Part shown: piece after piece, positions 39,014 through 43,133 of the stretch
How the letters are laid out: every line of letters begins with the position of its first letter
Numbering within the stretch: the stretch's first letter is position 1
Assembly: GCF_030161895.1 (NCBI RefSeq)
Contig: NZ_BSVB01000001.1
Location: 2,976,001 to 3,040,000 of the forward strand
Length of the DNA stretch: 64,000 bases
Source: Pseudolysinimonas kribbensis
GTDB taxonomy: Bacteria; Actinomycetota; Actinomycetes; Actinomycetales; Microbacteriaceae
Direction: 5' to 3'
The notes under the pieces: model-generated
Database searches by the model: none
What the model was told of the DNA's origin: nothing
The model's input: the letters and a program-made list of their open reading frames with translations, nothing else
Position numbers and translations under genes: made by a program

Positions 39014-39058
39014 CGACGGATGCCCCGGACGGGGTCAGAGCTCAATATCGGAGGCCCC

Positions 39059-40038
39059 GTGGACATCGACCTCACCATGCTGCGCATGATGGAGCGCGAG
39101 CGCGAGATCCCGTTCGATGAGCTCGTCACGATCATCGAGCAGGCGATCCTCACCGCCTACCTCAAGCACACCGGCACCGACCCCGAGTCCGGCGCGCGCG
39201 TCGAGCTCGACCGCAAGACCGGGCACGTGACGGTGTACGTGCCCGAACTCGACGACGACGGGGAGCAGATCGGCGAGGCCGTCGACAACCCCGACGACTT
39301 CGGGCGCATCTCGGCCTTCGCCGCGAAGCAGGTCATCAACCAGCGGCTGCGCGACATCGGCGACGACAAGGTGCTGGGGAGTTCCGCAACCGCGAGGGCG
39401 ACATCGTCGCCGGCGTCATCCAGCAGGGCCCGAACCCGCGCATGATCCACATCGACCTCGGTTCGGTCGAGGCGATCCTGCCGCCCGAGGAGCAGGTGCC
39501 CGGCGAGGACTACGCGCACGGCACCCGCATCCGGGTCTACGTGACGAGCGTGAGCAAGGGGCTCAAGGGACCGTCGATCACGGTCAGCCGCACGCATCCC
39601 GGTCTGGTGCGCAAGCTGTTCGCGCTCGAGGTGCCCGAGATCGCCTCCGGCGCGGTCGAGATCACGAGCCTCGCGCGGGAGGCCGGCCACCGCACCAAGA
39701 TCGCCGTGCGGGCCACCCAGCCGGGCATCAATGCCAAGGGCGCCGCGATCGGGGAGCTCGGCCAGCGGGTGCGCGCGGTCACGAGCGAGCTGCGCGACGA
39801 GAAGATCGACATCGTCGACTGGTCGGATGACCTCGCCACGTTCGTCGCCAACGCATTGAGCCCCGCGAAGGTCTCGAGCGCCTTCGTCGTCGACGAGTCG
39901 ACGCGGGCCGTGCGGGCGCTCGTGCCCGACTACCAGCTCTCGCTCGCCATCGGCAAGGAGGGCCAGAACGCGCGCCTCGCGGCGAAGCTGACGGGGGCGC
40001 GCATCGACATCCAGCCCGACAGCGTCATGGAGGGCTGA
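39059..40038 (+). CDS. nusA: Transcription elongation factor NusA (frame broken once)
   Basis: About 326 aa. It has the N-terminal RNAP-binding domain ([24 protein letters not shown]), an S1 domain, and two KH domains ([49 protein letters not shown]). It controls pausing, termination and antitermination. The frame breaks at GGGG 39376-39379; a fifth G gives [20 protein letters not shown] 39059 is preferred because GGAGG lies 4 nt upstream and family members begin MDIDL; an ATG at 39020 is the leaderless alternative. rimP, its usual upstream partner, is not next to it. Confidence 0.95.
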
Positions 40039-40064: not shown

Positions 40065-40348
40065 ATGGAGTCCGTCAGAACCTGCCTGGGTTGCCGGCAG
40101 CGCGCCCCCGATCCTCACTCGTGAGAGTCGTGGCGCGCGACGGCCGGGTCGCGGTGGATGCCGCGGCTCGCCTCCCCGGGCGGGGCGCGTGGCTGCATCG
40201 CAGCCAGGCGTGCGTCGAGACCGCCCTGAAGCGCAAGGCCTTCGGCCGGGCGCTGCGGGCGGACAACCTCGACGCGACCGGGCTCCTCCAGGAGTTCGGT
40301 GTCGACACCCTCAACCAGAAGGCTGAAAAGGCTATGGACCAGTCATGA
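40065..40348 (+). CDS. YlxR family RNA-binding protein (frame broken once)
   Basis: About 94 aa. The family motif RTCLGCRQRAP opens the protein, followed by VRVVARDGRVAVD, LPGRGAWLHRSQACVETALKRKAFGRAL. The frame breaks at CCCCC 40105-40109; a sixth C joins RQRAPRSSLVRV. Without it the protein stops after 19 residues. YlxR-like proteins sit between nusA and infB in many Gram-positives and have been linked to regulation of RNase P and nucleoid functions; the role here is not known. Confidence 0.88.
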
Positions 40349-40382
40349 GCGGCTCGAAATGAGCCTCCTCACCCACTGACGT

Positions 40383-40417
40383 CCGCTCCTGTCCGGGAGC
40401 GGGCACCCTGACAGGAG
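40383..40417 (+). promoter_or_regulatory. infB leader with two mutually exclusive hairpins
   Basis: Hairpin 1: 40383-40389 (CCGCTCC) with 40396-40402 (GGAGCGG), 6-nt loop. Hairpin 2: 40386-40393 (CTCCTGTC) with 40410-40417 (GACAGGAG), 16-nt loop; its 3' arm contains the AGGAG ribosome-binding site of infB. Both use 40386-40389, so only one can form. Hairpin 2 would hide the ribosome-binding site; hairpin 1 would free it. Confidence 0.55.
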
Positions 40418-40421
40418 AAAT

Positions 40422-43133
40422 GTGGCCAACCCACGTGTGCATGAAGTCGCTGCCGATCTCGGCATCGACAGCAAGATCGCGCTCGACAAGCTCAAGGACA
40501 TGGGCGAGTTCGTCAAGAGCGCGTCGTCGAGCATCGCCCCGCCCGTCGCGCGTCGCCTGAAGGCGGCCCTCGAGGCGGACCCGAACGTCAAGGTCGCGGA
40601 GAAGCCCACGGCCTCGCCCGCGCCGCCGAAGTCCGCGACGCCGAAGTCGGCTGCCCCGGCGGCGCCGACTCCCGCTCCTGCGCCGACCCCTGCGGCGCCC
40701 GCGCCCGCGCCCGCCGAGAGTGCAGCGCCGGCCGCCGCGCCCGCGGCCGCCGCGCCGCAGGCCGACGCCCCGGATGCCGCGGCAGCGCCGCGCCCCGCCG
40801 ACGGCGGCGTCGCGCGCCCGGGCGGCCCGCGTCCCGGCGCCCCGCGTCCCGGCAACAACCCCTACGCGTCGTCGCAGGGCATGTCGCGTCCCGGAGCGCC
40901 GCGTCCCGGTAACAACCCGTTCTCGTCCACGCAGGGCATGCCGCGTCCGGGTGGGGGCAACATCCCGCGCCCTGCGGCACCCCGCCCCGGGTCCCCGCGC
41001 CCGGGGGCTCCGCGTCCCGGCGGCCCGGGTCGTCCCGGCGCCCCGTTCCAGCAGCGTCCCGGCGGCGGTCGTCCCGGCGGCGGTGGCGGCGGATTCCAGC
41101 GTCCCGGTGGCGCTCCCGGCGGCGGCGGTTACGCCGGCCGTCCCGGCGGCGGCGGTGGTCGCGGTCGCGGTCCGGGCGGCGGCACCGCGGGAGCGTTCGG
41201 TCGTGGCGGAGGCAAGAGCCGCGCCCGCAAGTCGAAGCGGACGAAGCGCGCCGAATTCGAGATGCGCGATGCCCCGACGATCGGCGGCGTCAGCGTTCCC
41301 CGTGGTGATGGCAGCACGATCATCCGGATGCGACGCGGCGCCTCGATCGTCGACTTCGCCGAGAAGATCGAGAGCCTGACCGGCTACAGCGTGCAGCCGG
41401 GCAACCTCGTGACCGTGCTCTTCCAGCTCGGCGAGATGGCCACGGCCACCGAGTCGCTGGACGAGTCCACATTCGAGATCCTCGGCGGGGAACTGGGCTA
41501 CAAGGTCCAGGTCGTCTCGCCGGAGGACGAGGACAAGGAGCTCCTGGAGGGCTTCGGTCTCGACCTCGAGCAGGAGCTCGAGGACGAGGACGAGTCCGAC
41601 CTCGAGATCCGTCCGCCGGTCGTGACCGTGGTCGGCCACGTCGACCACGGAAAGACGAAGCTGCTCGACGCCATCCGCCAGACGAACGTCGTGGCGGGCG
41701 AGGCCGGCGGCATCACCCAGCACATCGGCGCCTACCAGGTGTGGACCGAGCACGACGGCATCGAGCGCGCCATCACCTTCATCGACACCCCGGGTCACGA
41801 GGCGTTCACCGCCATGCGTGCCCGCGGTGCGCAGGTGTCGGACATCGCGATCCTCGTGGTCGCCGCCGACGACGGCATCATGCCGCAGACGGTGGAGGCC
41901 CTGAACCACATGCAGGCGGCGAACGTGCCGATCGTGGTCGCGGTGAACAAGGTCGACAAGGAGGGCGCCAACCCCGCCCGCGTGCGCCAGCAGCTCACCG
42001 AGTTCGGCCTGGTCGCGGAGGAGTTCGGCGGCGACACCATGTTCGTCGACGTCTCCGCGCTGCAGGGCAAGGGAATCCCGGAGCTCCTGGACGCCGTGCT
42101 GCTGACCGCGGATGCCGGACTCGACCTGCGTGCGAACCCGAACAAGGACGCGCGCGGGATCGCGATCGAGGCGAAGCTCGACCGGGGCCGCGGTGCGGTC
42201 GCGACCGTGCTCATCCAGTCGGGCACGCTGCACGTCGGCGACGCGATCGTCGCGGGAACGGCCTACGGCCGCGTCCGCGCGATGCACGACGAGAACGGCG
42301 ACGCGGTCGAGGAGGCCCAGCCCTCTCGCCCGGTGCAGGTGCAGGGTCTGTCGACCGTGCCCCGCGCGGGCGACACCTTCCTCGTCACCGAGGAGGACCG
42401 CACCGCCCGCCAGATCGCCGAGAAGCGCGAGGCCGTCGAGCGCAACGCCCAGCTGGCCAAGGCCCGCAAGCGGATCTCGCTCGAGGACTTCACCCGTGCT
42501 CTCGAGGAGGGCAAGGTCGAGTCGCTCAACCTCATCATCAAGGGCGACGTCTCCGGTGCCGTCGAGGCGCTCGAGGAGGCCCTGCTCAAGATCGAGATCG
42601 ACGACAGCGTCCAGCTGCGCATCCTGCACCGCGGTGTGGGTGCCGTCACCGAGTCGGACATCGACCTGGCGACGATCGACAACGCGATCGTGATCGGGTT
42701 CAACGTCCGCCCCGACGTGAAGGCACGCGAGCGCGCTCAGCGCGAGGGCATCGACGTGCGGTTCTACTCGGTCATCTACGCGGCGCTCGAGGACATCGAG
42801 AGCTCGCTCAAGGGCATGCTCAAGCCGGAGTTCGAGGAGGTGCAGTCGGGCGTCGCCGAGATCCGCGAGATCTTCCGGTCGAGCAAGTTCGGCAACATCG
42901 CCGGTGTCATCGTCCGGTCGGGCACCATCACCCGCAACGCCAAGGCGCGGGTCATCCGCGATGGCGTCGTCGTCGGCGACAACCTCGCCATCGAGTCGCT
43001 GCGGCGGTTCAAGGACGACGTCACCGAGGTTCGCACGGACTTCGAGGCCGGTATCGGGCTCGGCAAGTTCAACGACATCCAGATCGGCGACGAGATCGAG
43101 ACGATCGAGATGCGCGAGAAGGTTCGGGCGTAG
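40422..43133 (+). CDS. infB: Translation initiation factor IF-2
   Basis: 903 aa. An IF2_N start ([27 protein letters not shown]) is followed by a long Pro/Ala then Gly/Arg-rich region (about residues 65-270) typical of Actinobacteria. The GTPase core has [12 protein letters not shown] near 405, [15 protein letters not shown], and [10 protein letters not shown]; domains II-IV follow to [20 protein letters not shown]-2 brings fMet-tRNA to the 30S subunit. GTG 40422 has AGGAG 4 nt upstream, and that site is inside a hairpin (40386-40417). The frame is intact despite the GC-rich repeats. Confidence 0.97.

Follow-up and report, generated by a model that had tools for sequence, protein, structure and literature searches.

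Little is known to us of how the amount of IF2, an essential factor, is controlled in bacteria other than enterobacteria. The autoregulation of infC (IF3) in E. coli reads the level of the factor via a rare start codon. In erm leaders, a short ORF precedes competing hairpins, one of which hides the Shine-Dalgarno (SD) sequence, and in the GCN4 leader of yeast several short upstream ORFs (uORFs), with re-initiation dependent on initiation factors, are situated upstream of the regulated ORF. A uORF also belongs to the CsrA/iraD attenuator (PMC5574718), and in the IF3 control of sigR in Streptomyces the factor level is likewise read via unusual initiation at a rare start codon (PMC5472188). Post-transcriptional control of infB has been documented in E. 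coli (PMC6511841). Genes coupled by termination-re-initiation (TeRe) through ATGA overlaps have a 4-nt stop/start overlap and a downstream start without SD (PMC6728339, PMC10666635). In E. coli, re-initiation depends on IF2, perhaps to a greater extent than de novo initiation does, and is lowered by excess IF3 (PMC2268962); IF2-dependent re-initiation has been reviewed (PMC12548453).

Here we describe the leader of infB, starting from a window of 64,000 nt (the whole stretch of DNA analyzed) from Pseudolysinimonas kribbensis, a member of the Microbacteriaceae. Positions 40380-40424 of its forward strand read CGTCCGCTCCTGTCCGGGAGCGGGCACCCTGACAGGAGAAATGTG and contain two stems together with the AGGAG of infB (Table 1). 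The first-pass annotation had proposed an 8-bp stem covering the AGGAG and a competing 7-bp stem leaving it free, and both are present exactly where it placed them. Their cores were correctly sized, but the second stem, S1, is really a helix of 10 bp, and the first, S2, gains three inner pairs. In S1, the core CCGCTCC (40383-40389) pairs with GGAGCGG (40396-40402), the full helix having -19.2 kcal/mol, and the AGGAG stays unpaired. In S2, the core CTCCTGTC is the perfect complement of GACAGGAG, which includes the AGGAG and buries it; with the inner pairs, S2 has -19.6 kcal/mol. S1 and S2 are mutually exclusive, and the two states are nearly balanced in energy. Nevertheless, the fold of the 91-nt leader barely beats those of shuffled sequences (z -1.09; 29 of 200 shuffles equally good), and an 8-bp Watson-Crick stem over the AGGAG appeared in 39 of 2000 shuffles (2%). 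One sequence alone thus proves little, and the comparative evidence is decisive. An Rfam search of the window gave no match at the gathering level, its best chance matches (E 0.67 and 1) both being outside the leader.

Table 1. Features of the infB leader and its flanking genes; coordinates are positions in the window.
Feature	Coordinates	Strand	Details and basis
ylxR (rnpM), 3′ part	40091..40348	+	Stop TGA 40346-40348; ORF list and reading
Mini-ORF 1, ATG AGC GGC TCG AAA TGA (MSGSK)	40345..40362	+	Chain tracing; kept in relatives
Mini-ORF 2, ATG AGC CTC CTC ACC CAC TGA (MSLLTH)	40359..40379	+	Chain tracing; relatives
Hairpin S1, open state, 10 bp	40381..40404	+	40381-40390 with 40395-40404; folding, class-wide swap test, pair types
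Hairpin S2, closed state	40386..40417	+	40386-40393 with 40410-40417, plus 40395-40397 with 40406-40408; covariation in 62 leaders
infB Shine-Dalgarno site, AGGAG	40413..40417	+	S2 3′ arm; GGAG invariant in alignment A1
infB (IF2)	40422..43133	+	GTG start 40422; ORF list and infB homologue collection

Two genes upstream appear frameshifted in the window. Near 40104-40112, ylxR contains one surplus C in GCGCGCCCCCGAT relative to the expected frame, and VRTCLGCRQRAP runs on in another one; this is probably a homopolymer error in the assembly (one contig, 86% estimated completeness). Gene nusA is broken into two ORFs (39020-39445 and 39442-40038), with a change of frame near 39375 (region 39365-39445), probably an assembly error of the same kind. 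Single bases of the leader could therefore also be wrong in the window, and our conclusions rest on its relatives.

Leaders were gathered via the N-terminus of infB from the family, public contigs, the order (Micrococcales; Actinomycetales in GTDB), the class and the phylum, and were assigned to families labeled f1 to f82, f1 being the Microbacteriaceae according to named contigs. The sampled leaders of the class Actinomycetes, around 190 of them distinct, include Streptomyces-like, Mycobacteriaceae and Micrococcales sequences. Alignment A1 comprises 62 diverse leaders of the order, 45 from Microbacteriaceae and 17 from other families. In A1, the positions of S2 form standard pairs in 87.4% of the cells, compared to 80.1% after shuffling, and seven of the ten pairs change on both sides, a count that none of 500 shuffles attained. 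All five measures of S2 beat 500 of 500 shuffles, a test that removes shared ancestry only partly; the compensatory changes recur across many families, for instance CCUUCUCUGG/CCAGAGAAGG in leader L145, CCAUUCCCGG/CCGGGAAUGG in L148, CCUGAUCCGGGG/CCCCGGAUUAGG in L094 and CCAGUCUGGG/CCCAGACUGG in L120. Sliding the 3′ arm by a single base left around 50% pairing. The number of double changes was reached by none of 1000 shuffles in the 45 Microbacteriaceae, and likewise in the 17 leaders from other families.

A swap test limited to the S2 duplex was not significant in the families of the order other than Microbacteriaceae, because the tested region also holds the arms of S1; the column counts of A1 are significant in these families. 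S2 was discarded as a class-wide feature (p = 0.36 in other orders). S2 is limited mainly to the order and the complete two-hairpin switch is not class-wide. Within family f4 (L123, L124, L126, L130-L133 and L138), S2 is weak or absent and S1 is kept. When genomes were searched with a covariance model of S2, the infB leader was the sole site in 26 of 30; elsewhere, there was just a marginal partial match (E 0.056), and this near confinement fits a cis element.

Since the length of S1 is variable, this hairpin was tested by swapping its 5′ and 3′ halves among leaders. The native combination gave better pairing than the swapped ones in 88 of 90 leaders of Microbacteriaceae (p = 2e-16), in 30 of 32 leaders from other families of the order (p = 3e-6) and in 47 of 55 from other orders (p = 2e-8); significance in these three taxonomic groups indicates that S1 is class-wide. 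Several types of pairs occur at each of its outer seven positions. The comparison of relatives that had been suggested as a check gave covariation for both stems (none of 500 shuffles for S2; p = 2e-16 within the family for S1), which strongly supports the idea that the infB leader has two states and that the ribosome-binding site is hidden in one of them. S1 was not followed by a U run, and an intrinsic terminator was consequently rejected. An H-type pseudoknot of S1 and S2 was rejected too, because the 3′ arm of S1 abuts that of S2 and leaves no loop; in the window, it is further excluded by the bases that the arms have in common. A third hairpin, P0 (CCGU/ACGG), was seen by eye in the stretch separating mini-ORF 2 from the 5′ arm of S1; it occurs in many Microbacteriaceae and was seen in that family only.

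The annotation of two stems had overlooked a conserved chain, made of mini-ORFs that overlap one another and run as far as the foot of S1. The leaders have in common several ATGA motifs in the stretch from the ylxR stop to S1, and we traced the chain backwards from the last mini-ORF. It consists of ORFs in series, mostly of 4-6 codons, that follow the ylxR stop and are linked by 4-nt ATGA stop/start overlaps. In the window, the ATG of mini-ORF 1 overlaps the ylxR stop by 4 nt, that of mini-ORF 2 overlaps the stop of mini-ORF 1, and the stop of mini-ORF 2 ends 1 nt 5′ of S1. At least two linked mini-ORFs were found in 94% of 190 non-redundant leaders, versus 0.3% of shuffled sequences and 0.6% of random windows from the same loci; the 26 leaders from the phylum's other classes contained no such pair. 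The typical number is two in Microbacteriaceae (90 of 93 leaders) and three or more in other orders (47 of 57); examples are ATGAGCACTCGATGA, ATGAGCACGCGATGA and ATGAGTACGCCCATGAAGTAG in the Streptomyces-like leader L222, and GTGAAGTCCCGACGATGA and ATGACCATGCGTCGTAGCTAA in L284, presumed to be from Mycobacteriaceae (f22). Additionally, genome-wide scans of 146 members of the class located the triple-ATGA pattern in 114 genomes, versus about 12 for the reversed pattern. As a sequence feature, the chain is therefore class-wide in the Actinomycetes, being present in nearly all sampled leaders. The first-pass annotation implied a feature particular to Microbacteriaceae, which does not hold: S1 and the chain extend to the class, and S2 mainly to the order.

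The ATGA motifs are mostly spaced by 11, 14, 17 or 20 nt, the spacing being 2 mod 3 in 332 of 362 cases, so that the frame is kept although the length varies. The 4-nt overlap and preserved frame are those of TeRe-coupled ORFs, and an SD-like sequence precedes just 14 of 438 mini-ORF starts, in agreement with the lack of an own SD in such ORFs. The last stop is TAA, TAG or TGA interchangeably and lies some 38-50 nt ahead of the infB start, and the first paired base of S1 usually follows it by 0-4 nt, as occurs in most leaders. No conservation indicative of a stalling leader peptide was found past the initial MS or MR (e.g., MRPVRN, MSLLTH, MSTPQH, MTMRRS), and sensing by a leader peptide was rejected because the peptides are not conserved.

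The chain varies in some families. The last mini-ORF is longer in the f4 leaders listed above, with 10-11 codons (MRxxxLAVxx), and in f6 (L125, L146-L148) it has 23-27 codons instead of 5-7. In f7 (L137, L149, L150) there is an extra inverted repeat across the start of the last mini-ORF, AGAGCAGU...ACUGCUCU in L137 and L150. The early mini-ORFs have a common context, CGATGAGCAC, across the class (e.g., L222, L233, L246; MSTR, MSAR, MSTQR), which may reflect coding, a preference of the initiation region or a binding site.

When a stop codon occupies the A site, the footprint of the ribosome extends roughly 9 nt past that codon, which at the last mini-ORF would take in most of the 5′ arm of S1. 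We computed exposure of the infB SD with 0, 5, 8, 10 or 12 nt past the last stop covered, in a thermodynamic model that ignores kinetics and proteins. Predicted exposures were, in this order, 0.84, 0.65, 0.52, 0.52 and 0.54 for other orders; 0.55, 0.37, 0.39, 0.43 and 0.53 for other families of the order; and 0.33, 0.23, 0.40, 0.69 and 0.78 for Microbacteriaceae. The predicted drop from 0.84 to 0.52 under a 10-nt cover in other orders was significant (p = 7e-9), the shuffles remaining unchanged. In Microbacteriaceae, the SD opens at 10-12 nt because the 5′ arm of S2 is then also covered; adding the RNA of the mini-ORFs to the model altered exposure little in this family (0.27 vs. 0.33). According to these predictions, the accessibility of the SD depends in every group on whether a ribosome sits at the last stop; in most groups such a ribosome closes the SD, and in Microbacteriaceae the sign of the change hinges on two or three bases of the footprint.

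We therefore tentatively propose, as a reading with a little less than an even chance of being right, that the leader acts in cis as a switch of infB translation, which re-initiating ribosomes read, and that the dependence of re-initiation on IF2 gives infB feedback. The chain, both hairpins, their covariation and position, and their restriction to infB are shown by the sequences, and from these we infer translation of the mini-ORFs, IF2 as the input and the sign of the response. Having finished ylxR, ribosomes would start again at the overlapping ATGA, read one to five mini-ORFs lacking SDs of their own and be released at a stop situated 0-4 nt 5′ of S1. During transcription of free RNA, S1 would fold first, so that the SD of infB stays open. 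Once a ribosome stood at the last stop, it would cover the 5′ arm of S1 and, in Micrococcales, the freed loop could form S2 with the SD and thereby close it. Re-initiation over about 38 nt is nearly abolished in E. coli gene pairs (PMC10666635), and the last mini-ORF, 38-50 nt upstream, is thus unlikely to hand a ribosome straight to infB; the chain probably delivers ribosomes to the foot of S1 rather than feeding infB directly. The chain might act as a sensor of IF2, because re-initiation needs this factor, perhaps more than ordinary initiation, and a series of IF2-dependent restarts just upstream of the gene for IF2 suggests feedback. With plentiful IF2, ribosomes would reach the last stop, S1 would be opened and infB translation lowered; with scarce IF2, ribosomes would drop off early, S1 would stay folded and infB would be translated from its own strong SD.

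The same anatomy might work with another input or sign if the ribosome at the last stop kept the infB SD open, as in erm leaders, in which case the output of infB would follow the translation of ylxR, or release and recycling at the stop codon, and not the sensing of IF2. The increase in predicted exposure from 0.33 to 0.69-0.78 under a 10-12-nt cover in Microbacteriaceae, the family of the window, agrees with such an activation, and a footprint of about 9-10 nt past the stop makes either sign possible; since an equal cover lowers exposure outside Microbacteriaceae, both elsewhere in the order and in other orders, we consider it rather unlikely. Alternatively, the chain could drain the ribosomes from ylxR and S1 keep the infB SD clear of upstream RNA, making infB translation independent and its rate steady, with S2 as minor tuning. 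Exposure of the SD in free S1 RNA from other orders, which is higher than in shuffles (0.84 vs. 0.58), and the fact that S2 is not class-wide are in line with this insulation. Nevertheless, a single distant stop would insulate equally, the 4-nt overlaps, which are conserved, favor re-initiation instead of hindering it (PMC10666635), and the covariation of S2 throughout the order would be left without a reason, making an insulator unlikely.

The first-pass annotation had named YlxR, temperature or transcription speed as possible inputs of the switch; the chain points to ribosomes instead, and none of our results speaks specifically for YlxR or temperature. A leader bound by YlxR or another RNA-binding protein, or acting as an RNA thermometer, with mini-ORFs only keeping ribosomes behind the RNA polymerase against Rho, appears quite improbable, as no motif stands out besides the pairing and the helices change sequence freely while keeping it. 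This is so even though YlxR is encoded adjacently and is reported to act with RNase P in Bacillus (PMC11898665), and though two balanced states, both of about -19 kcal/mol, could answer many inputs. The weak statistics of the single sequence would suit hairpins arising by chance in GC-rich DNA, an explanation that is refuted by the covariation and the class-wide chain and can hardly be correct.

We searched the open-licence literature (infB leaders, uORFs of Actinobacteria, control of IF2 and ylxR-infB; subscription papers were outside the scope) and obtained no description of the actinobacterial infB leader. In a survey of actinobacterial leader genes, infB is absent from the main text (PMC4833913), and the abstract of the report on E. 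coli infB mentions neither a mini-ORF chain nor such a pair of hairpins (PMC6511841). In our proposal, the leader operates in the manner of a translational attenuator to which termination-re-initiation supplies the ribosomes. It appears to be undescribed in the open-licence literature, which is not proof of novelty.

As in TeRe-coupled genes (PMC6728339, PMC10666635), the leader has 4-nt ATGA overlaps and downstream starts without SD, but its ORFs of 4-6 codons are serial and end at a hairpin around 40 nt before a gene with its own SD. It resembles the attenuators linked to uORFs, such as those of erm and CsrA/iraD (PMC5574718), in having short ORFs before rival hairpins, one of which hides the SD. 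The short ORFs are general, and mutually exclusive hairpins with sequestration of the SD occur in the order only, S2 not being significant in other orders. Unlike erm-type attenuators, however, it contains two or more linked ORFs and would receive its ribosomes from the upstream gene, and, as it lacks a conserved stalling peptide, it is not strictly of the erm type. It would share with infC and sigR the reading of a factor's level via unusual initiation, and would differ from them in using re-initiation steps and hairpins, and in doing so for IF2.

It is possible, although we regard it with some doubt, that control of IF2 in Actinomycetes is a re-initiation counter, in which serial mini-ORFs, each with an IF2-dependent restart, set the position of ribosomes at a two-hairpin infB gate, as a bacterial counterpart of GCN4. 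The likeness to GCN4 is one of layout and an analogy only: the infB leader is bacterial, does not involve scanning, and the gene controlled is that of an initiation factor itself. Each part of the chain can be mutated in a reporter, making self-control of IF2 directly testable, and, if true, this would be the first serial cascade of mini-ORF re-initiation in bacteria known to us.
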